Positions 27,541-41,918 of a stretch of DNA of 64,000 nt are shown piece after piece. The translations under genes were made by a program, and so were the position numbers. Location: contig NZ_CP086615.1 of NCBI RefSeq assembly GCF_020883455.1, positions 248,001-312,000 on the forward strand. Reading direction: 5' to 3'. The first letter of the stretch is position 1. The number at the start of each line of letters is the position of its first letter. The notes beneath the pieces are model-generated. The model saw only the letters and a list, made by a program, of their open reading frames with translations. It made no database searches and was not told the DNA's origin. This DNA comes from Spiribacter halobius (lineage in GTDB: Bacteria; Pseudomonadota; Gammaproteobacteria; Nitrococcales; Nitrococcaceae).

Positions 27541-28893
27541 GTGACGGGCATGAGGCTGGCGGTGTTGCAGGGTGCGGGGGACACCGGGCTGGTGGCCGTG
27601 GACGCCCTGCGTCCGGAGTGGGATGTTCAGCGCTGTGCCAACCTCAACGAGCTCTCCGCCGCCCTGCATGAGCGCACGCCGCAGGTCGTCCTGTTCCGGG
27701 CCGACGAGGCGCTGGTGCCGCTGGAGTCCCTGGAGGGGCTGGTGGCCGGGAGCCCGCTGGTTCAGTGGATCGCGCTGGTGACACCCGAGGAGCTTGAGGA
27801 CCCACGGGTGCGCCGGCTGGTGGCGCAGACCTGCACCGACTACCAGACACTGCCGCTGGACGCCGTCCGACTGCGCCATACCGTGGGTCACGCGGCGGGC
27901 ATGGGCCGGCTGCGGGCGCGGGTCATGGAGGGGGTGACCTCACCCTCGGAGCTCGGCCTGGTCGGCGCCAGCCCGGTGATGCTGAAGCTGATGCGCGGGC
28001 TGGAGAAGGTGGCCGCCGTGGATGCGCCGGTGCTCGTTCACGGCGAGACGGGCACCGGCAAGGAGCTCGTCGCCCGGGCCATCCATGCCCGCTCGAGCCG
28101 CCGCCGCGGCCCCTTCGTCGCGGTGAACTGCGGTGCCCTGCCGCCGACCCTCATCCACTCGGAGCTCTTCGGCCACGAGCGCGGGGCCTTCACTGGCGCG
28201 GCCAGCCGGCGGATCGGCCGTATCGAGACCGCCCGCGGCGGTACGGTGTTCCTGGACGAGATCGGCGATCTGTCGGCGGAGCTGCAGTCGCATCTGCTGC
28301 GCTTCCTCGAGGAGTCCACCATCGAGCGGCTCGGTAACGGCGATCCCATACGCGTTGACGCGCGGGTCATAGCGGCCACTCACGTGGACCTGGAGGGCGC
28401 CGTGGCCGAGGGGCGCTTTCGGGAGGATCTCTACTACCGCCTCAACGTGCTCCGGCTGGACACCCCGCCGCTGCGCGAGCGGGGCGACGACATCGAGCTG
28501 CTGGCGCGTTTCTTCTTCCAGCGCTATCGCAGCGAGTCGGCGCCCGGCGTGCGCGGGTTCAGCCGCGAGGCCATCGCTGCGATGCAGCAACATCCCTGGC
28601 CGGGAAACGTCCGCGAGCTGCTCAACCGCGTGCGCCGGGCGCTGGTGATGAGCGAGCGTCGCCTGATCGGCGCCGCCGATCTCGGCCTCGATCGCCGGGC
28701 CCGACCCCGCCGCCAGGAGACGCTGGAGCGGGCGCGCATCGCCGCCGAGCGCGAGGCGGTGCTTGGCAGCCTGCGCGCCAATCGCAACAACGTCACCCGC
28801 GCCGCCCAGCAGCTCGGCGTCTCCCGGGTGACGCTCTACCGGCTTCTGGACAAACATGGGCTGCGCTCCCACGGCGCGGCCGAGGCTCAATAA
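27541..28893 (+). CDS. VpsR-type sigma-54-dependent transcriptional activator
   Basis: 450 residues: an N-terminal receiver-like domain (about 1-125) with the TCTDYQTLP-type end seen in VpsR relatives, an AAA+ domain (about 138-370) and a Fis-type helix-turn-helix (about 405-440, TRAAQQLGVSRVTLYRLL). Walker A is GETGTGKE (168-175), the sigma-54 contact loop is intact as GAFTGA (215-220), and Walker B is GGTVFLDEIGD. VpsR of Vibrio cholerae binds cyclic di-GMP and controls biofilm matrix genes. Here the gene adjoins a fibre-type locus with a matching promoter. GTG start with GGGGAG upstream; ATG 27550 is the alternative. Confidence 0.9.
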   Translation: MTGMRLAVLQGAGDTGLVAVDALRPEWDVQRCANLNELSAALHERTPQVVLFRADEALVPLESLEGLVAGSPLVQWIALVTPEELEDPRVRRLVAQTCTDYQTLPLDAVRLRHTVGHAAGMGRLRARVMEGVTSPSELGLVGASPVMLKLMRGLEKVAAVDAPVLVHGETGTGKELVARAIHARSSRRRGPFVAVNCGALPPTLIHSELFGHERGAFTGAASRRIGRIETARGGTVFLDEIGDLSAELQSHLLRFLEESTIERLGNGDPIRVDARVIAATHVDLEGAVAEGRFREDLYYRLNVLRLDTPPLRERGDDIELLARFFFQRYRSESAPGVRGFSREAIAAMQQHPWPGNVRELLNRVRRALVMSERRLIGAADLGLDRRARPRRQETLERARIAAEREAVLGSLRANRNNVTRAAQQLGVSRVTLYRLLDKHGLRSHGAAEAQ

Positions 28894-28934: not shown

Positions 28935-29999
28935 ATGATCAGGGGGCAGGGAATTGGGGCATGGGCCCTGGCTGCGTCGCTCGCGGCCGGGCTGGCGGGC
29001 GCGCAGGAGACGCCGGACGGGCCGGTGGGGCAGGCGCCGCAGGAGGCGGAGCCGGAGCGCCCGGAGGTCGCGGCCATCGCGGACGTCGGCGGCGTCCTCA
29101 CCCGCGATGGCGCACTGGTCGTAGAGCCGTCGATCCAGCTCAGCAACTCCCAGGTGAACCGGTTCACCTTTCTCGGCGTGGAGATTCTTGAGACCTTCCT
29201 CATCGGGGTGCTCGAGGCGGAGGACGTGGACCGCGACGTGATCTCACCGGCGCTGGAGTTCCGCTACGGTGTCACGGACCGCTTCGAGCTGGGGCTCGAG
29301 GTGCCCTGGGTTTACCGCGAGGAGCGGCGGGTGGCCCGGATCCCGAACGTGGACACCGGCGAGGGCAGCGCGCCGATCACCCAGGAGCTGGACGGCGACG
29401 GCCTGGGCGACGTGTCCGTCTCGGCCCACTGGCAGATCAACCGGGGCGACCGCGACGGCCCGTTCTGGGTGGCCAATCTGCGCTACAAGAGCACCACCGG
29501 CGAGGGCCCCTTCGACATCGACTACGACGACGCCGCCATCGAGCAGGAGCTTGCTACCGGCTCGGGCTTCGAGGCCGTGGAGCCGAGCATCACGGTGCTC
29601 GGCACCAGCGACCCGCTGGTGCTCTATGCCAACCTCGGCTATCTCTTCAATCTCGAGGACGATGTCAATCGGACGCTGGGCAGTGGTGACCAGGCCCGTC
29701 GTATCGGCCGGGTGGACCCGGGCGACGCGGTGCGTACGAGCTTCGGTCTCTCGGTGGCGCTCAACCCGAACAGCTCGCTGAGCTTCGGCTACAAGCACGA
29801 CTTCATCCGCGAGACGGTCACCGAGATCAACGGCACGGATTTCCGCTCGGAGACGCTGGACGTGGGTGCGCTGCTGATCGGCTACAGCCATTCCCTCGGC
29901 CCGCGCCTCGGGGCCGGGGTCAGCCTGGAAATCGGCGCCACCGCAGACGCCCCGGACATCAGCGTGACGTTCCGGTTGCCGTATACGTTCGGGCCGTAA
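28935..29999 (+). CDS. Outer-membrane beta-barrel protein (FapF/MetA-pathway transporter-like)
   Basis: 354 residues with a signal peptide (about 1-23, ending GLAGAQ), a short linker, then repeated amphipathic strands ending in a terminal aromatic-rich strand (VTFRLPYTFGP), the pattern of outer-membrane barrels. FRYGVTDRFELGLEVPWVYR and SFGYKHDFIRETVTEINGTD are typical of the Phenol_MetA_deg/transporter family, to which the FapF export pore is also matched. It follows the activator by 41 bases with a strong GGAAAGGAGG site. A role as secretion pore for the secreted proteins of this locus is inferred; the coiled-coil plug of true FapF is not obvious. Confidence 0.75.
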   Translation: MIRGQGIGAWALAASLAAGLAGAQETPDGPVGQAPQEAEPERPEVAAIADVGGVLTRDGALVVEPSIQLSNSQVNRFTFLGVEILETFLIGVLEAEDVDRDVISPALEFRYGVTDRFELGLEVPWVYREERRVARIPNVDTGEGSAPITQELDGDGLGDVSVSAHWQINRGDRDGPFWVANLRYKSTTGEGPFDIDYDDAAIEQELATGSGFEAVEPSITVLGTSDPLVLYANLGYLFNLEDDVNRTLGSGDQARRIGRVDPGDAVRTSFGLSVALNPNSSLSFGYKHDFIRETVTEINGTDFRSETLDVGALLIGYSHSLGPRLGAGVSLEIGATADAPDISVTFRLPYTFGP

Positions 30000-30167: not shown

Positions 30168-30269
30168 GTAGGTCGGCAAGCGCGTAGCGCTCGCCGACAC
30201 ACCGGCAGGCGAATCCGCAGGCCGCGCTGAGCGCGGCTGTCGGCGAGCGCTACGCGCTTGTCGACCTAC
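30168..30269. repeat. Inverted repeat with 32-bp arms at the fibre-operon 3' end
   Basis: Arms 30168-30199 and 30238-30269 match as inverses with one mismatch (GTAGGTCGGCAAGCGCGTAG at the outer end). The loop is 38 bases. The right arm contains the TAG stop of the 224-residue gene, so the hairpin caps the fibre-operon transcript and probably terminates it. Confidence 0.7.
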
Positions 30270-30940
30270 TGTGACAAGGCCCGGCCCAGCGCCCTGGCTC
30301 GGACAACGTCCCGGGCCCGGGCGGCGAAGCTGGAGAAGTTGTGAATGCGGAGCTCCAGCTCGACTGCGTGATGGATGCTGCGATTGTCCGCCGTGTTGGT
30401 GATGGTCGAGACCACCTGGTGTGGGTTCACGATATGGTCCACGCGGGTCTGGCCGGTGACCGTGCGTCCCGCTGCCACGGGGTTTGCCTCCGTGACCGTC
30501 GCCGGGGCGACGCTCCCGCCTGTGGCGACGGCGTTCGGCGTTGCCGAGGCGGCGTCGATGCGGCTCGCGGCCGATTCGCCCGCGCTCTGTGTAGTCACGG
30601 TCGGAGCGGTGGTCGCCGATGGTGACGCATCCGTGACCGTGGCGGGCGCCTGCAGTCCGGCCTGCACGAGCCGTTGCGTCATCATCGCCTTGCCTTCGGC
30701 CAGACGGGTGATCTGCATCTCCGTCGCGGCGGCGAGGCGCTGATCGATGTAGGTGCGCATGCGCGCCGTCAGGTCCATGCGCAGGCCGGCCACCTCGAGG
30801 CCGCCGCGCAGGCCGGCGAGCTCGCCGTCGCTCAGGGCCGTGCGGGGAAAGCTCGCCGCGCTGGCCGTTCCAGCCAGCAGGGCGCCTGCAATGACCAGGG
30901 CGGCAAGCCCTGCCGTGGGTCGATATCGCTGACCGTCCAT
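30266..30940 (-). CDS. Secreted fibre-operon protein with GG-type leader motif (FapE-like position)
   Basis: 224 residues with a signal peptide (about 1-29). LSDGELAGLRGG (36-47) looks like a double-glycine leader placed just after it. The central region (about 95-175) is rich in Ala, Thr, Val and Ser, and the C-terminal part (HAVELELRIHNFSSFAARAR) is more ordered. It is the last gene of the five-gene operon, six bases after the C39 peptidase gene. Position and composition recall FapE, but sequence identity is not evident to me, so the function is inferred. Its stop lies inside a hairpin arm. Confidence 0.7.
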   Translation of the reverse strand: MDGQRYRPTAGLAALVIAGALLAGTASAASFPRTALSDGELAGLRGGLEVAGLRMDLTARMRTYIDQRLAAATEMQITRLAEGKAMMTQRLVQAGLQAPATVTDASPSATTAPTVTTQSAGESAASRIDAASATPNAVATGGSVAPATVTEANPVAAGRTVTGQTRVDHIVNPHQVVSTITNTADNRSIHHAVELELRIHNFSSFAARARDVVRARALGRALSQ

Positions 30941-30946
30941 GAACTG

Positions 30947-31654
30947 CTACCTCCCGAATTCGTTGAGTCCGGGCAGGTCGATGCCGTGCAGCGGCAGCCC
31001 GGGGAGCCGGCGACCGGCCGGCAGGGGGGCGTCCGGGCGCACCGCCCAGTCCGCCGGATGATTGAAATGCGCCCGGGCGACGTCGATGCGTCCCCGGGCA
31101 GCGAGAAGAATCCCGTTCCAGATGGACTCCATCAGCGCCCTCGGCACCACGGCCAGCCCACCGGCGGGATCTCCCACCAGCACCTCGTCGCCGCGTACGC
31201 CCTTGATCACCACGAAGTGCCGGTAGCCGTTGGTGTTCACCAGGGCAATGGCAGGCACACCGATGGCGGCGAGCTGGTCCAGGTCCATGCGGAAGCCGTC
31301 CGCCTGGAGTCCGAGGCCGTCCAGATAGCGCTTGAGGTCCAGCATGGAGAAGCCTTCCCGCCGGATCAGCGCCTGGTCGCCGGTGGCGTACATGGCCTCG
31401 AAGACGCTGGCCTCGTTGCGGGGGAGCTCGTAGTGATAGCTGAGCAGCGTCGCCACCGCCGCCGAGCCGCAGCTGAAGTCGTACTGCTGGCCCACGACCC
31501 GCTGCCAGCGGCGCTCGGTGAGGCTGACGAGCGACGGCGTGCGGGCGAGATCCATGGCCCGCAGGGCCGGTGAGCGGGCATCGCTCGCGTGCGGCACGGA
31601 CAGCGCCGTCAGCGCCAGGGCGCAAAGCACGATCAGGCCAGACATCCGTGACAT
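30947..31654 (-). CDS. Periplasmic C39-family cysteine peptidase (FapD-like)
   Basis: 235 residues from ATG 31654 with GGGAG upstream; the frame continues six codons to a TTG. A signal peptide spans about 1-25. The papain-like triad is visible: QYDFSCGSAAVATLL (Cys62), GYRHFVVI (His146) and GDPAGG (Asp162). C39 peptidases normally cut double-glycine leaders inside ABC exporters. This is a stand-alone secreted form, as FapD is in Pseudomonas amyloid operons. Neighbouring secreted proteins with GG- or RG-type sequences after their signal peptides are candidate substrates. Confidence 0.85.
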   Translation of the reverse strand: MSRMSGLIVLCALALTALSVPHASDARSPALRAMDLARTPSLVSLTERRWQRVVGQQYDFSCGSAAVATLLSYHYELPRNEASVFEAMYATGDQALIRREGFSMLDLKRYLDGLGLQADGFRMDLDQLAAIGVPAIALVNTNGYRHFVVIKGVRGDEVLVGDPAGGLAVVPRALMESIWNGILLAARGRIDVARAHFNHPADWAVRPDAPLPAGRRLPGLPLHGIDLPGLNEFGR

Positions 31655-31676
31655 GGCGCAGCGCTCCCGCAAGGCC

Positions 31677-32033
31677 TCAGTGCAGATGCACGCTCATGCT
31701 GACGCCCGTGGAGAAGGCGTTGTTGTTCCCCGAATTGAGGACGTTGACGCCCACGCCGGAGAAGTTGGCGAATGCGCCCTCACCCACGGTGATGTCGCCG
31801 TTATTCATGGTGCCGACGTTGAAGCTGGCGCCGGTGACGCTGGCGCGCATGTCCTGGCGGCTGGTGACGATGGTGATCTGGTTGTCCGCGCCCCTTGCGG
31901 CCTCGAGCTCGGCACTGTCGGCGACGGGCAGGCTGTCCAGCGCCGCCATGGGATCCGCCGCGCCGGCTGCCAGGCTCGCCAGACCGAGGACGGCGGCGAC
32001 CAGGGTCGGAGAGAGAAGCTTTGCCGTATTCAT
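31677..32033 (-). CDS. Small secreted fibre-operon protein with QDMRASVTGA motif
   Basis: 118 residues: signal peptide (about 1-25), a short leader-like segment (SAELEAARGAD, 40-50), then the motif SRQDMRASVTGA (58-69) shared with both large Gly-rich proteins. The C-terminus is a strand-prone Asn/Gly/Val-rich region (FSGVGVNVLNSGNNNAFSTG) typical of secreted beta-rich fibre proteins. It may be a minor subunit or nucleator in the manner of FapB or CsgB. Spaced 62 bases after the second Gly-rich gene. Confidence 0.75.
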   Translation of the reverse strand: MNTAKLLSPTLVAAVLGLASLAAGAADPMAALDSLPVADSAELEAARGADNQITIVTSRQDMRASVTGASFNVGTMNNGDITVGEGAFANFSGVGVNVLNSGNNNAFSTGVSMSVHLH

Positions 32034-32095
32034 GACCCGAACCTCGTGAAGAGAGGGGCCGGCGACCCCCCAAGGCGGTCGCCGGCCAACAGGCC

Positions 32096-33460
32096 TCAGT
32101 TGCCGATGTTGACGTTGGAGTGCGCGGCCACCGACACACCGCCCACGCTGGCGTTGTAGAGACCGCTTGACAGGTTCATGGAGTTGATCCCGCCGAAGGT
32201 CCCCGAGCCGACGTTCACGCTGAGGGCGCCGGTGGAGAGCATGCCGCCCGAGCCGGCACCCCCTGCGCCGCCGTTGCCGCCGTTGCCGCCGGCACCGCCC
32301 TGGTTGTTGCCGGCGAGGCCACCGCTGGCCGCGCCGCCGACCCCACCGTTGCCGCCGTCACCGCCGGCACCGCCCGTGGCCACGTTGTTGCCGTTGCCGG
32401 TGGCTCCGCCGTCGGCTCCGTTGCCGCCGGCCGCCGTCTGGCCGCTGGCATCCGCCGCGCCGCCGGCACCGCTGGTACCGCCGTTGCCGCCGGTGCTCGT
32501 CTGAGTGCCGCTGGCGTCGGCCGTCTGGTCGGTGTCGTTGTCGTTCTCCTGGCTGTCGCTGGTGTCGTCGAAGTCGTTGCGGTTGCGCTGGGTGGTGGTG
32601 TTGGTGTTGTCGGCATCCCCGTAGGCATAGCCGTCGGCATAGCCGCCCTCGGCATCACCCGAGTCCCCTCCCTCGGCATCGCCATAGGCGTCGGCGTAGC
32701 CGCCGTCACCGCCGTCGCCGGCGTCACCGTAGCCCTTGGCCTTGGCATCGCCGCCGTCGCCACCGTCGCCGCCATCGCCGGCACCCACGGAGACGCCCAG
32801 GGAGGCACCCACGGCGAGGCCGCCGCTGGCACCGTTGCCGCCGTCACCGCCGGCCGCCCCGTTGCCACCCTGGATGTTGATGGCCGCACCGGTGACGTGG
32901 GCACGCATCTCCTGGTAGGAGATCACCTCGGTAACCGTGTTGAACGACTCGCTGTAGGCCTCTGCGGTGCCGCCGAAGCCACCCGCGCCACCGGCGCCGC
33001 CGGCGCCGCCTGCACCTCCGGCCCCGGCCGTGCCGGCCGTGCCGGTGCCCGTGCCGCCGGCCCCGCCGGTGGCGCTGGCATCACCGGCTGTGGCCGTGCC
33101 GGTCTGCCCGGTGGTGTTGGCGTTGCTCTGGCTGACCGCCTCTTCCGGGAATTCGTCGTTGCTGTTGGACTGACTCGTGTAGTTGTCGTTGTAGGCGTCG
33201 GCATCCGCGTCGGCATCGGCATAGCCCCCGTTGCCGCCGTCGTTGTTGCTGGCGTTGGCATCGCCGCCGGTCCCGCCATCGCCGCCGTAGCCGCCGTAGC
33301 CGCCATCCCCGGCGTGGGTTGTCGCCGTGGCCGAGGAGTTGACGGTGTTGCTCTGGTTGTCACCGAACTTGTTGATCGGGTTGGCCGAGGCCGCCGAGGC
33401 GAGCAGGGCCGCCAGCGCCAGCGCCGAGCCGTAGGTTGCGAGAGTCTTTCCGGTACTCAT
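32096..33460 (-). CDS. Secreted (GGX)n glycine-rich fibre protein, paralogue B
   Basis: 454 residues: signal peptide (about 1-26, ASAANP junction), a first GGX-rich block (about 51-80), an Asn/Gln/Ser-rich segment (85-120), a second GGX block (to about 165), the hinge YQEMRAHVTGA (182-192), long Gly/Asp/Ala repeats, a second Asn/Asp/Thr segment, a third GGX block, and a conserved C-terminal block (MLSTGALSVNVGSGTFGGIN ... SNVNIGN). There are no cysteines. It is colinear with the upstream paralogue over its whole length. Probably exported through the outer membrane to form an extracellular fibre or matrix. Confidence 0.8.
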   Translation of the reverse strand: MSTGKTLATYGSALALAALLASAASANPINKFGDNQSNTVNSSATATTHAGDGGYGGYGGDGGTGGDANASNNDGGNGGYADADADADAYNDNYTSQSNSNDEFPEEAVSQSNANTTGQTGTATAGDASATGGAGGTGTGTAGTAGAGGAGGAGGAGGAGGFGGTAEAYSESFNTVTEVISYQEMRAHVTGAAINIQGGNGAAGGDGGNGASGGLAVGASLGVSVGAGDGGDGGDGGDAKAKGYGDAGDGGDGGYADAYGDAEGGDSGDAEGGYADGYAYGDADNTNTTTQRNRNDFDDTSDSQENDNDTDQTADASGTQTSTGGNGGTSGAGGAADASGQTAAGGNGADGGATGNGNNVATGGAGGDGGNGGVGGAASGGLAGNNQGGAGGNGGNGGAGGAGSGGMLSTGALSVNVGSGTFGGINSMNLSSGLYNASVGGVSVAAHSNVNIGN

Positions 33461-33492
33461 CTCAATGCTCCTTGACGCACGCGGGTGCGGTC

Positions 33493-34863
33493 TCAGTTGT
33501 TACCGATGTTGACGTTGGAGTGCGCCGCCACGGACACACCGCCGACGCTGGCGTTGTAGAGGCCGCTCGAGAGGTTCATCGAGTTGATGCCCCCGAAGGT
33601 GCCGCTGCCCACGTTGGCACTGAGCGCGCCGGTGGAGAGCACGCCGCCGGAACCGGCACCGCCGGCACCGCCTGTGCCGCCGTTACCGCCCACGCCGCCG
33701 GCGTTGCCGGAAGCGTCACCGCCAGTGCCAGCGCCGGCCACCGCGGCGTTGCCGCCGTTGCCGCCGTTGCCGCCAGTAGCATTGTTGCCGCCGTTGCCGG
33801 TGTCGCCGCCATTGCCGCCGTTGCCGCCCACCGCGTTCTGCGCGCTGGCCGTGGCCGCCCCGCCGTCACCACTGGTGCCGCCGGCGCCGCCGGTGCTGTC
33901 CTGATCGGCGGTGGCCGTCGCGGTCTGCGTGGTCTCGTTGTCGTTGCTCTGGGTCTCGCTGTTCTCCTCCGGCACGTTGTTGCGGTTCACCTGACGGGTG
34001 CTGTTGCTGTTGCTGGCGTAGGCCTCGGCGTCGCCATAGCCGTCATCGCCGTCGGCCTCCCCGGAGTCGCCCCCGTAGGCCATACCCTCGGCGTAGGCGT
34101 CATCGCCCTCGCCACCGTCGCCGGCATCGCCCTTGCCCTTGGCATAGGCTTTGCCCCCTTCGCCACCCTCGCCACCGTCGCCAATGGCAACGGAGGCGCC
34201 GGCGGAGATGCCCACGGCTGCGCCACCACTGGCGCCGTTGCCGCCGCTGCCGCCGGCGGCGCCATTACCGCCGTTGATGCGGATTGGCGCACCGGTGACG
34301 TTGGCGCGCATCTCCTGGTAGGAGATCACCTCGGTCACGCTGTTGAACGACTCACTCCAGGCTGAGGCCGTGCCGCCGGAGCCGCCCGCGCCACCGTTGC
34401 CACCGGCGCCGCCGGCACCACCGGCACCTGCCGTTCCGGCCATGCCCGTGCCGGCGCCGCCGTCGCCCGCGGTCGCCGTGCCCACGCCGCCAGCAGCGTC
34501 CGCATCCTGCGTGGTGTCATTGGTGTTGCTCTGGCTGGCGGTCTCCTCGTCCGCCAAGTCGTTCTCGTTGTTCTGCCAGGTGTCGTTGTAGTTGCTGGAG
34601 TAGGCGTCGCCGTCGGCGTCGGCGTTGCCGCCGTTGCCACCATCGTTGTTGCTGGCGTTGGCGTCGCCGCCGGTGCCGCCATAGCCGCCGTCACCACCCT
34701 CGGCGCCATGGCCGGCGTTGGTTTCGGCGTAGGCGTCGGACTCGACGCCGTTGTCCTGCCCACTACCAAACTTGTTGATGGGATTCGCGGATGCCGCTGT
34801 CGCGTAGAGTGCAGCCAGCGCGAGGGCCGAGGCGCACGCCACGACGGTTTTCCTGGTGCCCAT
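33493..34863 (-). CDS. Secreted (GGX)n glycine-rich fibre protein, paralogue A
   Basis: 456 residues and the first gene of the operon. The same plan as its neighbour: signal peptide to about residue 26, NPINKFG, GGX blocks, an Asn/Asp/Gln-rich stretch, YQEMRANVTGA (182-192), acidic Gly repeats (DGGEGGEGG), a further Asn/Thr/Gln segment (about 284-320), Asn-rich GGN repeats (345-372) and the conserved C-terminus (VLSTGALSANVGSGTFGG ... HSNVNIGNN). The C-terminal 65 residues and the N-terminus are nearly identical to paralogue B, pointing to tandem duplication. Poly-GGX suggests polyglycine-II-like or beta-roll packing. Confidence 0.8.
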   Translation of the reverse strand: MGTRKTVVACASALALAALYATAASANPINKFGSGQDNGVESDAYAETNAGHGAEGGDGGYGGTGGDANASNNDGGNGGNADADGDAYSSNYNDTWQNNENDLADEETASQSNTNDTTQDADAAGGVGTATAGDGGAGTGMAGTAGAGGAGGAGGNGGAGGSGGTASAWSESFNSVTEVISYQEMRANVTGAPIRINGGNGAAGGSGGNGASGGAAVGISAGASVAIGDGGEGGEGGKAYAKGKGDAGDGGEGDDAYAEGMAYGGDSGEADGDDGYGDAEAYASNSNSTRQVNRNNVPEENSETQSNDNETTQTATATADQDSTGGAGGTSGDGGAATASAQNAVGGNGGNGGDTGNGGNNATGGNGGNGGNAAVAGAGTGGDASGNAGGVGGNGGTGGAGGAGSGGVLSTGALSANVGSGTFGGINSMNLSSGLYNASVGGVSVAAHSNVNIGNN

Positions 34864-35220
34864 AACTCGTCTCCTTAAGGGTTGCCCTTCGATTTCCCTG
34901 CCCCGTCACGCCGCCTCCGGGCGGTCGCGGCAAAGGGGGCCGCTGTGACCCCGGATGGTGGACACATCACCAATGACCCGCCCCCACCCGGCACCGGGAA
35001 CGCAGCAATGGCTATGCCATGCCCGCGGGTTATTCGTAAGACGCTGATATGGAGAGGAAAATAGCGTCGGGCGGCCAGCTGCGTCCGCCGTATCGGGGTT
35101 GGCGACCGTCAGCCCGCTGAAACACCGCCCGGAGAAATACGGCGCCTCGCCCCGCAATCGCGGGCCTGGGCGGCGTGGCGCGGAAGCGTTAAGGCCGGGA
35201 TACGCGCGGGTGGCGCCGGC
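34864..35220. other. Upstream regulatory region of the fibre operon
   Basis: 357 bases between the first Gly-rich gene and the xthA stop. It holds a sigma-54 promoter match at 35004-35019 and an AT-richer stretch just beyond it (35028-35065) suitable for activator or IHF binding. The nearer 130 bases would be the 5' leader. I see no gene in it. Confidence 0.6.
35004..35019 (-). promoter_or_regulatory. Sigma-54 (RpoN) promoter for the fibre operon
   Basis: On the minus strand TGGCATAGCCATTGCT matches the consensus TGGCAC-N5-TTGC, with GG and GC exactly ten bases apart (the -24/-12 signature). It points toward the first Gly-rich gene, whose start is about 130 bases beyond the predicted transcription start. 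The locus also encodes an activator with an intact GAFTGA loop. Confidence 0.65.
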
Positions 35221-35991
35221 TCAGGCGTCGGCGAGCTCGGCGACCACGGGGGCGTGGTCGGATGGGCGCTCCCAGGCCCGGGGGCCCCGGTCCACATAGC
35301 TCGCCGTGAGCGCCCCGGTCACGGTGGGGCTGGTCAGGATGAGATCGATGCGCAGGCCGCGGTTGCGCTTGAAGTTGTTCATTCGGTAGTCCCACCAGGA
35401 GAAGACGGCTTCGTCCTGGGGAAAGCGGCGGAAGCTGTCGGTCAGTCCCAGCGCCATTAGCGCCTGCAGCGCCTCGCGCTCGGGGGTCGAGCAGAGTACC
35501 TGCTCGCGCCAGGCCTCCGGGTCGTGGACGTCCCGGTCCTCGGGGGCGACGTTGAAATCCCCAACCACCACGAGGCGCGGGTGGCGTGCCTGCTCGGCGG
35601 CGAGCCAGTCGCGCAGCCGCGCCAGCCAGTCCAGCTTGTAGGCGTACTTGTCGCTGCCCACGGCCTGGCCATTGGGGACGTACAGGTTCACGAAGCGCAG
35701 GTCACCGATCGTCGTGGCCAGCACCCGGCGCTGAGGGTCATCGAGGCCGGGGATGTCGGTCACCGGTGCCGACAGCGGCTGGCGTGCGAGCACCGCCACG
35801 CCGTTGTAGGTCTTCTGGCCGCTGCACAGTGACTCGTAACCCGCCTCGCGAAGAGCGTCGCGGGGAAAACGCTCGTCCGGGAGCTTGGTCTCCTGCAGGC
35901 CGACCACATCCGGCTGCGCCTGCTCCAGCCAATCCAGCACCTGGGGCAGGCGTACGTTGAGGGAGTTGACGTTCCAGGAGGCAAGCTTCAC
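35221..35991 (-). CDS. xthA: Exodeoxyribonuclease III
   Basis: 256 residues. Mg-dependent AP endonuclease and 3' repair exonuclease. MKLASWNVNSLNVRLPQVLDWL, LQETKLPD (metal-binding Glu), VVGDFNVAPEDRDVHDP (catalytic Asp/Asn) and SDHAPVVAEL (catalytic Asp-His) are all present. It starts 15 bases after the egtD stop, so it may be read from the same transcript, although it has no obvious link to selenium metabolism. Confidence 0.95.
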   Translation of the reverse strand: MKLASWNVNSLNVRLPQVLDWLEQAQPDVVGLQETKLPDERFPRDALREAGYESLCSGQKTYNGVAVLARQPLSAPVTDIPGLDDPQRRVLATTIGDLRFVNLYVPNGQAVGSDKYAYKLDWLARLRDWLAAEQARHPRLVVVGDFNVAPEDRDVHDPEAWREQVLCSTPEREALQALMALGLTDSFRRFPQDEAVFSWWDYRMNNFKRNRGLRIDLILTSPTVTGALTASYVDRGPRAWERPSDHAPVVAELADA

Positions 35992-36006: not shown

Positions 36007-36936
36007 TCAGACCAGCAGGACGACGGCGAACCAGCCGTCGGCATCCGTCCACCAGCGCTCGCAGTCCCAGCCACCGGCGGCTGCCAGCGCGGCGAATCCG
36101 TCGCGAGTGTACTTGTGGGAGGTCTCCGTGTGCAGGCTCTCACCGGCCTCGAAGCGGAACCGCTCTCCGGCCACGGTGACCGTCTGCGGCCGCTCGGCGA
36201 TCAGGTGCATCTCGACGCGCGGCGGGTCGTCGGCATAGCGCGCCTCGTGCCGAAACGCCTCGGGATCGAAGTCGCCGCCGAGCTCGCGGTTGATGCGCCG
36301 CAGCAGGTTGCGGTTGAACTCCGCCGTCACCCCGGCGGCGTCATCGTAGGCCGGGATGAGGACCGAGGCGGGCTTGTCCAGGTCGAGCCCGAGCACGAGG
36401 CAGCCGTCCGCGCCTAGCAGGCGCCGGCAGCGAGCGAGCAGCGCGCCGGCCGCTTCGTCGTCGAGGTTGCCGAGGGTGGAGCCGGGGAAGAAGCCGGCCC
36501 GCCGGCGGTGCGCCGGCAGCCCATCCGGTAGCCCGAAGTCGGCGGTGAAGTCGGCCACCACCGGTTGCACGGTGAGCTCGGGAAACGCGCCCTGCAGCGA
36601 GCGCGCCGCCTCGTGCAGGTATTCCTCGGAGATGTCCACGGGGACATAGCCCGCGGGCCGGCTCAGGGCAGCGAGCAGCGGCCCGGTCTTGCGGCTGGAG
36701 CCACTGCCGAGCTCCACCACCAGCGCCTCCGGCCCTATGGCCTCGGCGATCTCTTCCATGTTCCCGTCGAGGATGGCGAGCTCGGTACGGGTCGGGTAGT
36801 ACTCGGGCAGCCGCGTGATCTCCTCGAAGAGCTCGGAGCCGCGCTGGTCGTAGAGCCAGGCCGAAGGGATACGCTTCGGTGAGCGGGCGAGCCCTTCCAG
36901 GACGTCCCTGCGGAAGGCGTCTTCGGTTCCGGTCAT
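36007..36936 (-). CDS. egtD: L-histidine N-alpha-methyltransferase (EgtD)
   Basis: 309 residues from ATG 36936. It trimethylates histidine to hercynine with three S-adenosylmethionines. Family marks: SAWLYDQRGSELFEEITRLPEYYPTRTE, SAM motif LVVELGSGSSRKTGPLL, PVDISEEYLHEAA and FFPGSTLGNLDDEAA. Hercynine is the backbone of both ergothioneine and selenoneine. The EgtB-like, SenB-like and SelD genes in the same 9-kb region imply the selenium branch. It is separated from the transporter genes by 574 bases carrying two nested hairpins, so it may have its own promoter. Confidence 0.93.
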   Translation of the reverse strand: MTGTEDAFRRDVLEGLARSPKRIPSAWLYDQRGSELFEEITRLPEYYPTRTELAILDGNMEEIAEAIGPEALVVELGSGSSRKTGPLLAALSRPAGYVPVDISEEYLHEAARSLQGAFPELTVQPVVADFTADFGLPDGLPAHRRRAGFFPGSTLGNLDDEAAGALLARCRRLLGADGCLVLGLDLDKPASVLIPAYDDAAGVTAEFNRNLLRRINRELGGDFDPEAFRHEARYADDPPRVEMHLIAERPQTVTVAGERFRFEAGESLHTETSHKYTRDGFAALAAAGGWDCERWWTDADGWFAVVLLV

Positions 36937-37006
36937 GGTTCGTCCTTGTATTGGCGTGCGAATGAGGTGGCCGCGGCCGCGCGGGAGACGTATGGGCCGT
37001 GCCCGG

Positions 37007-37114
37007 GGCGAGTTCGGGTGGGCGCGCACGGGACACGCCGTGAATACGTCCCTGTAGGCTCGTAGGCGAGGTCCCTCTCGCCTACGGTCCCGTGCGCGCC
37101 CACCCAAACTCGCC
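37007..37114 (-). repeat. Nested-hairpin element, copy B
   Basis: Outer arms 37007-37034 and 37087-37114 (28 bp, one mismatch). Inner stem CGTAGGCGAG/CTCGCCTACG with loop GTCCCT. On one side only is the shared segment, here in reverse (ACGCCGTGAATACGTCCCTG, then TAGGCT). Same design as copies C, D and E, but with arms of unrelated sequence. Confidence 0.8.
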
Positions 37115-37302
37115 CTGGCGAGCTCAGTGCACTCCTCCGCGACCGCGTGATCGGGAGGCGCCCGTGCTCGGGTCCACCCCGCAGCCGCCGTGGCGGGGTC
37201 AGCCTGCCCCCTGGGCGGCGGTGCGCGGAGGCGCCGCATTCACCGGCGCGCAAGTGACTGCCCCCTCTTCCAAGGGCCGTGCGGCGAGCACGGGGCATGC
37301 GT

Positions 37303-37510: not shown

Positions 37511-39031
37511 TCACGCTTCGCATGTCGGCGTGGTGCGCAGGTGAAGGCGGCGGCGGAGGTGGCGGGCGAGGGCGTCGACGGCGATGTTGAGCGCGGCGGT
37601 GATGAGGATGAGCACCAGGGCGCGGTCGAAGCGCAGCTCCTGGATGGCGCTATCCACGTAGAAGCCGAGCGTTGTGATCCCGAGGATCCCCAGGATCGCC
37701 GTCTCACGCATGATGATCTCCCAGCGGTAGAACAGGAACGCGAGAAACGAGCCGTACAACCGCGGGACCACCTCGAAGGCGTAGCGGTTGAGCCCGCGGG
37801 GGGCGTCGGGGCGGAGTACGAGCTCGTTGCTCTGGCGGCCGATGAGATGGCCGATGATGGCCCCGTTGTGCAGCGCCAGGGCGACCGCCGCCGGCAGCAT
37901 GGAGGGCCCCCAGAGCTGCAGCAGGATGTAGGCGAGCAGGTACTCGGGGGTGGAGCGCGCGACGATGAGCACCGCGTGGCCGAAGCCGCCGCCGAGGCGG
38001 CCGGTGAACTGCCGGGAGATCATCGGGAAGCTCGCGAGTGCCAGCAGCCCCGTCGCCACCAGGGCGATCTGCGTGAGCACCAGGGTCGCGGCGATACCCG
38101 GCAGGGCCTGGTTCATCAGGAGATCGCCGAGCCAGGGGAACAGCCCCGGCAGGCCCTCGCCGGCGCGCAGCGGCGCCGGCACGATGTCCTCGGTGAAGAA
38201 CCGCCCCATGTTGCCCCACATGATCGGCAGGCCCGTGCCGAGGAACCAGGGTGCCGCCAGCAGGTAGAGGGGGACCAGGCGCGGCCGCACCCACAGCCGC
38301 AGGCTCGCGATGAGCGCGAAGAACACCAGCAGCAGCATCCCGACCTCGCCGTAATGCCCCTCGCCGTAGGCGCTCTCCAGATAGAAGCCGAGGGTGGGCA
38401 TGCCAACGAAGCCGAGCACGGCGCTGGAGCGCAGGCCGCACTCCAGGCGGTAGCTGGTGTAGCTCATCAGGTGCGGCCAGACGTCCGGCACCCGGGCGTA
38501 CCAGAAGGCGGCGACGAGCCCCGTGCCCGGGGGCAGGGCACGGGTGGGTGTGGGGTCCGCCTCCTCCAGGATCTCCGAGTAGACGCGGGCGAACACCCCG
38601 GCGTAGGGGATGGCGATGGCGAGCACGCCGGTGAGCGGATGCAGCCCGAAGATCTGCAGGAAGATCAGCGCCCAGAACAGCTCATGGATGGCCCGCACGA
38701 ATGCGCAGCCCGTGCGCACGGCCCGGTACTGGAACACCAGCGCCAGGCCCATGCCGGCGGCAGCGCCGAGGGCGACGCCGCAGAAGGCAAAGGCCACGGT
38801 GCGCAGCAGCGCCGTCCCGGCGGTGTCCAGGGTGGCGAAATCCGGCTGCAGGATTCCGCCGAGGAAGCGGCCCAGTTCCGCCCACGGCGAGACCGCGCTG
38901 ATCTCCAGGTCCGCCGGAATCAGGCAGACCAGGGCGACGGCCACGAGTCCGAGGCTCGTGCGCACTGTGCGCGAGGCGAGGGCATCGCCGTCGGCACCGA
39001 GCCAGCGGCCGGTGCGCTCCGTCACCGCCAT
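37511..39031 (-). CDS. PhnE-type ABC permease, double-domain (proposed selenium oxyanion importer)
   Basis: 506 residues with two consecutive permease domains (about 80-270 and 330-500). Each has a membrane-spanning bundle with an EAA-like cytoplasmic loop (RVPDVWPHLMSYTSYRLE in the first, EVVPRLYGSFLAFLFYRWE in the second). PhnE permeases are usually single-domain dimers, so this is a fused pair. It lies 27 bases after the ATPase gene in the senA-phnD-phnC-phnE order. Substrate inferred from context as selenate or selenite; phosphonate or phosphite cannot be ruled out by sequence. Confidence 0.85.
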   Translation of the reverse strand: MAVTERTGRWLGADGDALASRTVRTSLGLVAVALVCLIPADLEISAVSPWAELGRFLGGILQPDFATLDTAGTALLRTVAFAFCGVALGAAAGMGLALVFQYRAVRTGCAFVRAIHELFWALIFLQIFGLHPLTGVLAIAIPYAGVFARVYSEILEEADPTPTRALPPGTGLVAAFWYARVPDVWPHLMSYTSYRLECGLRSSAVLGFVGMPTLGFYLESAYGEGHYGEVGMLLLVFFALIASLRLWVRPRLVPLYLLAAPWFLGTGLPIMWGNMGRFFTEDIVPAPLRAGEGLPGLFPWLGDLLMNQALPGIAATLVLTQIALVATGLLALASFPMISRQFTGRLGGGFGHAVLIVARSTPEYLLAYILLQLWGPSMLPAAVALALHNGAIIGHLIGRQSNELVLRPDAPRGLNRYAFEVVPRLYGSFLAFLFYRWEIIMRETAILGILGITTLGFYVDSAIQELRFDRALVLILITAALNIAVDALARHLRRRLHLRTTPTCEA

Positions 39032-39058
39032 GACAGGCCTCCATCGGCGCAGCCGCGC

Positions 39059-39709
39059 TCAGTAGAGGTCATTCAGATCCGCCTTGCCCAGGCGCGCGGC
39101 GGGTTCATCCAGGGCGATTCCGCCATCGCGGATGCCCACGACGCGATGGGCGAAGCGCAGGGCCAGGTCGATGTCGTGCAGCCCCAGGACGGCGGTATCG
39201 TAGGTCTCGGTGAGGGCCTCCATGACGGTGACCGCCAGCGGGCCGTCCAGCGCCGAGACCGGCTCGTCCGCCAGCAGCACGCCGGCATTCTGGAAGAGGG
39301 CTCGCGCCACGGCGACGCGCTGGCGCTGGCCGCCGGAGAGCTCCCCGGCACGGGACCAGAGCTGATCCGCCATGCCCAGGCGAGCCAGCAGCGGCCGGAT
39401 GGCGTCGACCTCCCGCCGGAACGGCCGGATCAGGTTGGCCAGGTTGTAGGCGGTGCCGTGCTCGGCCAGGCGGCCCATGTAGACGTTGTGAAAGACAGAC
39501 AGCGTCTGCACCAGGCCGAGGTCCTGAGGCACCAGGGCCAGGTCCCGCCGTGCCGGGTTGTACAGCAGCGAGAGCAGGGTCGACTTGCCGGCCCCGCTCC
39601 GCCCCACCAGCGCAACCCGCTCGCCCCGGCGGATGGTGAGCGTCAGCGGGCCGAGCACGGCGGTCTCGCCGTAGCTCGCCCGGGCGTCACGCAGCGCGAG
39701 CGCCTCCAT
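39059..39709 (-). CDS. PhnC-type ABC ATPase (proposed selenium oxyanion importer)
   Basis: 216 residues: Walker A GRSGAGKST, Q-loop VPQDLGLVQTLS, signature LSGGQRQRVAVARAL, Walker B VLLADEPVSALD and the H-loop histidine in LGLHDIDLAL. It is compact, lacking any C-terminal regulatory domain. The start overlaps the stop of the binding-protein gene by one base, so the two are coupled. It powers the double-domain permease encoded next. Confidence 0.9.
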   Translation of the reverse strand: MEALALRDARASYGETAVLGPLTLTIRRGERVALVGRSGAGKSTLLSLLYNPARRDLALVPQDLGLVQTLSVFHNVYMGRLAEHGTAYNLANLIRPFRREVDAIRPLLARLGMADQLWSRAGELSGGQRQRVAVARALFQNAGVLLADEPVSALDGPLAVTVMEALTETYDTAVLGLHDIDLALRFAHRVVGIRDGGIALDEPAARLGKADLNDLY

Positions 39710-40569
39710 CAGTCGATAAGGCCGATCGCCTGCGCCGTCTCGCGGATGCTGGCGTAGTCGTCGTTCTCCGCCGGGATGAAGCCGGAGCGCGGGAAGCGCT
39801 CGAGCAGGTCCGGGTCGTCCATGCCGAGCAGGGCCTGCTGCACCCGGTCGGCGAAGCCGTCGCCGAAGCGCTCGTCGACATCGCCGCGGATGCTCCACTG
39901 GTAGTCCGGATAGGGCGGCGTCTCCCAGATCACCTGCACCGCGTCGGTATCCACCTCGCCGGCCGCGACGGCCTCTTCCCAGACCGCGTAGTTGAGTGCC
40001 CCGGCCTGATAGCTGCCGCTCTCCACGAGACGCAGCGTGCGGCTGTGATTGCCGCTGAAGCCCACCCGCTCGAAGATCGCCTCCGGCGCCTCGCCGAAGT
40101 GCTGCCGCAGATGGTATTCGGGCATCAGCCGCCCGGAGGTGGAGCCCTTGGAGCCAAAGGTGAAGGTCAGCCCGCGCAGGCCCTCCGGCAGCTCGTCGGC
40201 GGGCTCCAGGCCGCTGCTCTCGTGGGCGATGAAGTAGGTGCGGAATTCGGTGTCCTCGACGCCCTGGGCGATGGCGCGGGAGCCGGGCACGGCGTCCCGG
40301 GCCTGCACGCCGGATAGACCGCCGAACCAGGCGAGCTGCACTTGGCCGTTGCGGAAGGCGCTCACCGCGGCGGCGTAGGACTTCACGGGTACGTAGCGCA
40401 CGTCGACGTCGAGCCGGCTCTCCAGGTAGTCGGCTACGGCGCCGAAGCGCTCCTCCAGGGCGCTCTCGTCCTGGTCGGGGATGGCGGTGAAGACGAAGGT
40501 CTGGGCGCCGGCCACCGGCGCGGCGAGCCCCAGGGCGGCAATGAGCAGTCGGCGCAGCAGGTTACGCAT
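39709..40569 (-). CDS. PhnD-type periplasmic binding protein, putative selenium oxyanion binder
   Basis: 286 residues with a signal peptide (about 1-22, PVAGA). FTAIPDQDESALEERFGAVA, YVPVKSYAAAVSAFRNGQVQ, LAWFGGLSGVQARDAVPGS and the ligand loop SKGSTSGRLMPEYHL belong to the PhnD superfamily. The subgroup beginning FTAIPDQDE, found beside selD, has been named a putative selenate-binding protein (TIGR04553, from memory). It lies 29 bases after senA. Together with the ATPase and permease it should feed selenium into the pathway encoded around it. Confidence 0.85.
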   Translation of the reverse strand: MRNLLRRLLIAALGLAAPVAGAQTFVFTAIPDQDESALEERFGAVADYLESRLDVDVRYVPVKSYAAAVSAFRNGQVQLAWFGGLSGVQARDAVPGSRAIAQGVEDTEFRTYFIAHESSGLEPADELPEGLRGLTFTFGSKGSTSGRLMPEYHLRQHFGEAPEAIFERVGFSGNHSRTLRLVESGSYQAGALNYAVWEEAVAAGEVDTDAVQVIWETPPYPDYQWSIRGDVDERFGDGFADRVQQALLGMDDPDLLERFPRSGFIPAENDDYASIRETAQAIGLID

Positions 40570-40598
40570 GGTGTCAGTCCCTTGTGGTTGACAGTGGC

Positions 40599-41918
40599 TC
40601 AGAGCGCGCAGGTGCGGAAGCCCGCGATGGTGTCGTTGCGCTCGGGGGTAAAGAAATTGCGGAAATTGTTGTTCACGAGCCGGGAACGGGTGGCCCAGGC
40701 GCCGCCACGCAGCACCCGCCGGCCTTCCTTGAACCAAGGCTCCGAGTAGTCGGCGTAGAGGTCGGCCTGAAAGCCGGGGAAGGGCTGGAACAGGCTGCTG
40801 GTCCACTCCCAGACGTTGCCGAGCATCTGCCGGCAGCCGCAGGCGCTCTCGCCCTCGGGGAAGGCAGCGACGTCCACGGCGCCGAGGCGGTAGCCGTCCA
40901 GGTTGGCCGGCGGCCGCTCGGGCAGCGCGTCGCCCCAGGGGTAGAGGCGCTTGCCGGGGGCCAGGCGGTCGCCGTCCGGGACGCGGCTTGCAGCCACCTC
41001 CCACTCCACCTCCGTGGGCAGGCGCCGGCCCGCCCAGGCGCAGTAGGCCTCCGCCTCGTAGTAGCTGACGTGCGCCACCGGCTGGTGCGGCGGCAGCGGG
41101 AGCCAGCGGTCGAACCAGCGCAGCTGCCAGCCGTCGCCGTCGCGACGCCAGTAACAGGGCGCCTCGAGCCCTTCCGCCTCGCGCCAGGCCCAGCCGGCCT
41201 CGCTCCAGAGCTCCCGCCGCCGATAGCCGCCGTCCGCCACGAACTGGGCGAACTCGGCGTTGGTCACCGGCGCCCGGGCGATGCGGAACGGCGCCACGCT
41301 GACCGTGTGCGGCTGCTTCTCGTTGTCGAAGCGAAACGGCACGGTCTCGTCGGAGCCGAGCAGATGCTCGCCGCCCGGCACCGCGACATCCCCCGGCAAC
41401 GGGCCGGCGGCCGCCTCGGGCAGGTCGGCGGGTGTGGCCAGCGCCGGCGGTGGGTCGGAGAGGGTCTGGCGGGTGTAGGCGAAGGCCTCGCCGTGCATGT
41501 CCTCGTGGAAGATGGCGAGCTGCCAGGCATAGCTGGACGCCGCGTCGGCCGTGCCCTCCGGCAGGCGGGCCACCATCTCGTCGCGCACCTGGCGCAGGTA
41601 GTCCAGGGTGTCCGCCATGGTGGGCAGCGGGAGATCCCAGCGGTCGTCGTGGGCCACGCCCATTGAGTCATAGAGCCGCTCGGCGTGGGGAATGCGGTAA
41701 TCCGGCAGCCCGTGCAGCTCGCGCAGCACGAAGTGGTCGTAGAAGAACCCCACGTGGCCGATCTCCCACTGGGGCGGATTGACGATGCTAAGCTTCGGCC
41801 CGAGCCGGCGCTCGCCGGAGAGATCGCCGGTGAGCTCGACGGTGCGCCGGCGGGCGTCGTCGAGCATGGCCGCGAGCCGCTCGGATGCCACTGGATGGGT
41901 GCTCGGCACTTCGATCAT
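40599..41918 (-). CDS. senA: Selenoneine synthase (EgtB-like SenA)
   Basis: 439 residues: an N-terminal DinB-like four-helix domain and a C-terminal formylglycine-generating-enzyme/sulfatase-modifying domain (about 160-435, GNVWEWTSSLF, VLRGGAWATRS). The iron site is H55 (WEIGHVG) with H138 and H142 in HEDMHGE. EgtB joins a sulfur donor to hercynine and SenA does so with a selenosugar. I call SenA because SenB and SelD are adjacent and EgtA/C/E are absent from the window; EgtB remains possible. ATG 41918 has GGGGGAAG upstream; ATG 41867 is an alternative that would widen the gap to senB. Confidence 0.82.
   Translation of the reverse strand: MIEVPSTHPVASERLAAMLDDARRRTVELTGDLSGERRLGPKLSIVNPPQWEIGHVGFFYDHFVLRELHGLPDYRIPHAERLYDSMGVAHDDRWDLPLPTMADTLDYLRQVRDEMVARLPEGTADAASSYAWQLAIFHEDMHGEAFAYTRQTLSDPPPALATPADLPEAAAGPLPGDVAVPGGEHLLGSDETVPFRFDNEKQPHTVSVAPFRIARAPVTNAEFAQFVADGGYRRRELWSEAGWAWREAEGLEAPCYWRRDGDGWQLRWFDRWLPLPPHQPVAHVSYYEAEAYCAWAGRRLPTEVEWEVAASRVPDGDRLAPGKRLYPWGDALPERPPANLDGYRLGAVDVAAFPEGESACGCRQMLGNVWEWTSSLFQPFPGFQADLYADYSEPWFKEGRRVLRGGAWATRSRLVNNNFRNFFTPERNDTIAGFRTCAL

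Follow-up and report, generated by a model that had tools for sequence, protein, structure and literature searches.

What does a short motif, Q(E/D)MRAxVTGA, do in three neighbouring proteins of very different size? The three genes lie on the minus strand of the window, which is the whole 64,000-nt stretch of DNA analysed and the frame of all coordinates, and they encode putative secreted structural proteins. P1 (456 aa, 33493..34863) is a FapC-like large subunit composed of a Sec signal, a Gly-rich body, the motif strand (residues 183-192) and a C-terminal core (residues 408-456); in relatives, too, a P1-type gene precedes the gene of the small subunit. P2 (454 aa, 32096..33460) is a second FapC-like large subunit, and both were defined as open reading frames. 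P3 (118 aa, 31677..32033) is a FapB-like small subunit, identified by a FapB-repeat profile match and by the homologue that precedes the C39 peptidase gene in relatives; it contains a signal, a C39-type leader and a single core without an insert. The motif reads QEMRANVTGA in P1 (34288..34317), QEMRAHVTGA in P2 (32885..32914) and QDMRASVTGA in P3 (31827..31856), all on the minus strand. As the original prediction stated, it occupies residues 183-192 of P1 and P2 and 60-69 of P3; it is followed by the segments PIRINGG, AINIQGG and SFNVGT, respectively. The same prediction spoke of two 450-residue proteins and of otherwise dissimilar contexts, which needs correction: the lengths are 456 and 454, P1 and P2 are tandem paralogues with 317/454 identical residues (70%) over the whole length, and P3 is homologous to both across the region after the motif.

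The DNA pattern for Q[ED]M-x3-VTGA had exactly three matches in the 4.17 Mb genome that contains the window, all of them the motifs above; the reversed-pattern control had none. Outside this genome, four matches came from the 54-genome order scan, three of them in frame in P1-type genes, and three from the remainder of the 370-genome class scan, one of them in a P1-type gene; both samples were drawn sets rather than censuses. The matches in G005, G035, G036 and G323 are in frame within P1-type genes as judged by offset, and the remaining three are in G311 (with an in-frame stop), G239 and G050. The motif is thus real and specific to this cluster within its own genome. It was not widespread in unrelated proteins in the order and class scans, and C39 peptidase and barrel genes do accompany the motif-bearing subunits, as had been anticipated.

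Profile-profile comparison of the P3 family with uninserted P1-type cores gave a match of 96.7% (P 3.6e-10), against 2.1% at most in the column-shuffled control. In this alignment the motif of P3 lies opposite [SE]LxGTVxGNxV, column for column with strand 1 of the P1-type cores. Many large subunits end in a contiguous core of the form xxLxGTVxGNxV...NxIxxGSFxxxxGIxQVxQNSGxNSLxQQxxxVQANV, and the same elements are contiguous in P3; whereas in P1 and P2 of the window, and in the loci L057, L063 and L069, a low-complexity block splits strand 1 from the rest of the core. In these inserted P1 proteins the strand-1 profile block lands on the motif, weakly with a distant profile and strongly with a clade profile. 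The motif is best read as no independent module; the alignments indicate that P1, P2 and P3 have a small repeat-like core in common by descent, with the motif as its strand 1. They also indicate that a Gly-rich block of about 205 residues is inserted after strand 1 in the large subunits, with 206 aa in P1 (33643..34260, minus strand), between strand 1 and the remaining core, and 205 aa in P2 (32243..32857, minus strand). The C-terminal cores follow at 33496..33642 in P1 and 32099..32242 in P2, also on the minus strand.

FapC was described as a Greek-key solenoid in which every repeat makes up one layer and the linkers vary, and its repeats contain disordered residues, the longest stretch in repeat 3 (PMC12392863). 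By analogy, strand 1 together with the remaining core could form a similar Greek-key layer with the Gly-rich block looped out; this stays conditional because the AlphaFold models were of low confidence (mean pLDDT 63 for P3 and 38 for P1). Searches of Pfam, NCBIfam, PHROGs and PDB sequences with P3 returned nothing useful, and its apparent relatives elsewhere in the same genome proved to be signal-peptide look-alikes. The repeat part of the core is apparently present in tandem copies in L058 and L059, as judged by eye. Large subunits of the same type in L060, L062, L064, L065 and L070 have Asn/Ser/Asp-rich repeats (DNSDNS) in place of the Gly-rich bodies, with the same C-terminal core.

The reading preferred here, with a probability of roughly 60%, is that the motif represents strand 1 of a core common to P1, P2 and P3 of a Fap-related extracellular fibre system. 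The degree to which its letters are kept was analysed across the Gly-rich clade (Nitrococcus, Aquisalimonas, Halomonadaceae, Kiloniellaceae and relatives), with 25 gene clusters compared. The Gln is constant in P1 and P3 across the 25 clusters, and x-Q-x-[ML]-x-[SA]-x-V-x-G-[AS] is the dominant and sole recurring pattern; the Arg position is mostly occupied by T, N, S, D, K or another residue. The clade therefore appears to keep only the looser pattern and not the literal motif. G79, G93 and G102 do not vary among 40 P3-type proteins, and the leader residue Leu43 is nearly invariant; none of the motif residues reaches 90% conservation. The originally predicted common docking, nucleation or export site holds in part. 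The motif may well be a common functional element of putative secreted structural proteins, as the first conserved strand encoded near C39 and barrel genes; the idea of a short module placed in unrelated proteins does not hold, and its literal letters are not conserved in the 25 clusters.

A narrower version, in which like strands pair so that P3 templates P1 and P2, with coevolution of the letters inside each genome, is rather unlikely. It would explain why the same pattern occurs in P1 and P3 of the 25 clusters, and why the two motifs in the window agree at 8/11 positions; moreover, the within-genome identity of P1 and P3 motifs was slightly above the permuted value (4.38 vs 4.01, P 0.016, phylogeny not controlled). 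However, with BLOSUM scores the same covariation gave P 0.10, or 0.22 without the window, again with phylogeny uncontrolled, and the P1 motifs of three other clusters match the P3 motif of the window equally well (8/11).

A role in export was also considered. The protein E (224 aa, 30266..30940, minus strand) is assigned as a FapE homologue by profile matches to FapE over the leader and to P3 over the C-terminal repeat. The comparison with FapE over the leader region gave 95% (P 4e-8), while the FapE model of NCBIfam was not matched; the C-terminal repeat of E matched P3 at 97% (P 6e-11), and in the profile comparison E has this repeat without the motif strand. A conserved leader, LxxxRG[GAR], is found on both P3 and E. 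In P3 it is the C39-type leader ELEAARGA (31887..31910, minus strand), in which Leu43 and the leader pattern are shared with relatives; in E it is the double-glycine leader GELAGLRGG (30800..30826, minus strand). By simple patterns, on which all these counts depend, an [LM]xxxRGG leader like that of E was seen downstream of the C39 gene in 55/72 loci, and L-x3-x-[GA]-x was present in 68/78 P3-type proteins, with RGG and RGR as the commonest endings. At the equivalent place, FapE of 13/13 classical Fap loci has RG[RK], found by pattern in 12 loci and by reading in L071 (ELANQRGRF).

It has been reported that FapC secretion requires FapD catalysis, and that FapE is N-terminally processed and secreted together with the fibre (PMC5557850); the substrate of FapD was described as unknown (PMC5557850, PMC6173800). 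On the strength of the requirement for FapD catalysis and of the FapE processing (PMC5557850), we propose that the C39 peptidases of both branches, the present one and Fap, cut after the LxxxRG leader. Leaders on two proteins encoded beside the peptidase, together with the equivalent in FapE, would provide a precise candidate cut site for FapD, which is essential for Fap secretion. The alternative that the motif itself is an export or docking signal, which every secreted subunit would present to the barrel or to the C39 peptidase, is improbable. It would account for the presence of the motif in all three putative fibre subunits together with secretion genes, and FapC has no known targeting sequence (PMC6173800). 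However, the FapE homologue E lacks the motif, the motif letters vary between genomes with no residue (nearly) invariant in the P3-type proteins, and the better conserved LxxxRG[GAR] leader suits recognition by the peptidase. Among docking, nucleation and export, the last appears least supported, since E, as a relative of the secreted FapE (PMC5557850), has the C-terminal repeat but no motif strand. A fibre-core strand, and via it docking or nucleation, thus seems to fit better than an export signal.

The remaining genes of the cluster point to the same kind of system. The C39 peptidase (241 aa, 30947..31672, minus strand), predicted to be periplasmic, matched Pfam PF03412 (7.5e-20) and NCBIfam FapD (5e-41, 140 bits, cut-off 330 bits), and has the catalytic residues Q62, C68, H152 and D168; its assignment as a FapD homologue is also consistent with its place in the tree. 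F (354 aa, 28935..29999, plus strand) is a FapF-like outer-membrane barrel that matched NCBIfam FapF (5.4e-38, 131 bits, cut-off 700) over model positions 92-420, with the first 91 positions unmatched. P3 matched the FapB repeats in profile comparison (93%, P 2.8e-7); the P1 cores gave no significant profile match to whole classical FapC. By model and profile matches, C39 is homologous to FapD, E to FapE and F to FapF. P3 belongs to a large family of small proteins, as seen in relatives from the same order and class and in 80 named loci, the latter picked by C39 similarity: in 78 of the 80 a P3-type gene lies directly upstream of C39, and the remaining two loci begin at or near C39. Draft or metagenome assemblies are the source of several of these relatives, and the starts of open reading frames were set mechanically.

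Upstream of F lies R (27541..28893, plus strand), a sigma-54 enhancer-binding regulator with a VpsR domain according to domain searches, which adjoins F in many relatives. A sigma-54 -24/-12 promoter site, TGGCATAGCCATTGCT (35004..35019, minus strand), is located 141-156 bp before P1. No other site in the window is free of mismatches, and similar sites occur near the P1 start in 41/70 relatives vs 4.3 matches expected from background. Nothing usable on sigma-54 control of fap was found in the literature. Beyond this site, an exodeoxyribonuclease III-like gene (35221-35991) adjoins the P1-type gene, as it does in the distant relatives L036, L037 and L039, a synteny conserved without obvious reason. 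Further out, the translations at 36007-37239 and 40599-41918 read like egtD and egtB of ergothioneine synthesis, and those on the minus strand at 37511-41004 resemble phosphonate-type ABC transporter genes.

A phylogenetic tree of the C39 peptidases was reconstructed after the loci had been sorted by gene content, by eye, into Fap, Fil-like and own-type. The 47 own-type rows fall on one side of a branch with support 100/98, apart from Fap (13 rows) and Fil-like (5 rows). Members of the own-type branch belong to Pseudomonadota, Myxococcota and Thermodesulfobacteriota; that homologues of fapD and fapF also lie together outside Proteobacteria was already noted (PMC6173800). A second C39 cluster was observed in Nitrococcus-type genomes (L045:4406-9724 and L046:596-5420). 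Several small exported proteins with the leader L(T/N)xxQ[ML]DxVxxG are encoded there beside an ATP-grasp-like protein, a FapF/FilC-like barrel and a C39 peptidase that belongs to the Fil-like branch; the cluster may represent a distinct secretion system that uses leaders of its own. One genome, G095, has seven C39 homologues of this general kind on several contigs.

That the cluster is a bacteriocin-like or pilus (Fil-type) system instead of a fibre system is very improbable. Double-glycine peptides are the usual substrates of C39 peptidases, and the FilB and FilC models also match, although below their cut-offs (98.6 vs 475 bits and 50 vs 630 bits, respectively). On the other hand, no ABC transporter gene was seen in the cluster or beside the peptidase, which has C39 domains only; the subunits have Sec-type signals, the tree parts the own branch from the Fil-like rows, and P3 and E match FapB and FapE. 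Finally, the idea that an unrelated small protein resembles the two Gly-rich paralogues by chance can practically be dismissed: shuffled mature P3 gives an 8/10 match to P1 in 12/2000 trials (0.6%), so that, P1 being compositionally biased, the single P1-P3 comparison is only moderately unlikely by chance, but the same columns align by profile over many genomes, which refutes this idea, and the pattern recurs in the 25 clusters.

For the preferred fibre-core reading, the core ancestry, the insert, the linkage to FapD, FapE and FapF homologues, and the sigma-54 activator gene with its promoter site are read from sequence; fibre formation, the cleavage of P3 and E, and export form the inferred part of the mechanism. 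R would turn on the operon, and P1, P2, P3 and E would cross the inner membrane via Sec. The periplasmic C39 peptidase might then cut P3 and E just after LxxxRG[GA], and the products might exit through the FapF-like barrel. Outside the cell, P3, with its single uninserted core, may act like FapB and seed P1 and P2, whose cores would stack as cross-beta layers, strand 1 first, with the Gly-rich inserts as the surface coat of the fibre. A wider proposal can be made tentatively, with the odds somewhat against it: that this is a distinct, undescribed Fap-like branch in which C39 frees a FapB-like nucleator and a FapE homologue at LxxxRG[GAR], coupling maturation, export and nucleation; that the subunits co-assemble via a shared core split by the Gly-rich insert; and that RG[RK] is the FapD site in FapE. 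No description of these subunits was found in the literature searched. The branch also shows a single repeat core serving both small and large subunits, whose bodies differ widely (Gly-rich or Asn/Ser/Asp-rich), and inserts at one position of this core bear on how amyloid scaffolds might carry cargo.

Comparison with known systems also showed both similarities and differences. Curli have Asn/Gln-rich strand-turn-strand repeats in their secreted subunits, which may resemble the present ones; whereas a C39 peptidase and a FapF-like barrel here replace the curli export genes, and a Pfam search of P1, P2 and P3 gave no curlin match. Type 1 secretion of double-glycine (C39) substrates shares the peptidase and the [L/M]xxxRGG leaders, but the present peptidase is predicted to be periplasmic and is not fused to an ABC transporter. 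The Fil system, a putative pilus system of Acinetobacter, likewise has a C39 peptidase and a barrel; however, its model matches are weaker and the Fil-like rows form a separate branch of the C39 tree. With Fap, the functional amyloid of Pseudomonas (fapABCDEF), the system shares FapD, FapE and FapF homologues, Fap-like repeats at the C terminus of large and small subunits, the LxxxRG[x] leader on both FapE and E, and a long linker in the large subunit. In contrast to Fap, no FapA was seen here, the subunits have one divergent repeat instead of three and do not fit GX4NX3GX6N, and the large subunit lacks CxxC, there being no Cys in mature P1 or P2. The published Fap repeat X15GX4NX3GX6NX7 is absent from P3 and E, is confined to chance matches within the Gly-rich body in P1 and P2, and is found in 4/78 P3-type proteins; in Fap loci, FapC and FapB give three matches each (one FapC gives four). 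Moreover, the small subunit bears a C39-type leader and is encoded between the large subunits and C39, the barrel and regulator genes are on the opposite strand, and the peptidase is on a separate branch. Because the published Fap repeat does not fit the subunits and CxxC is missing from the large ones, these comparisons indicate that the system is a sister of Fap, and not a Fap operon.
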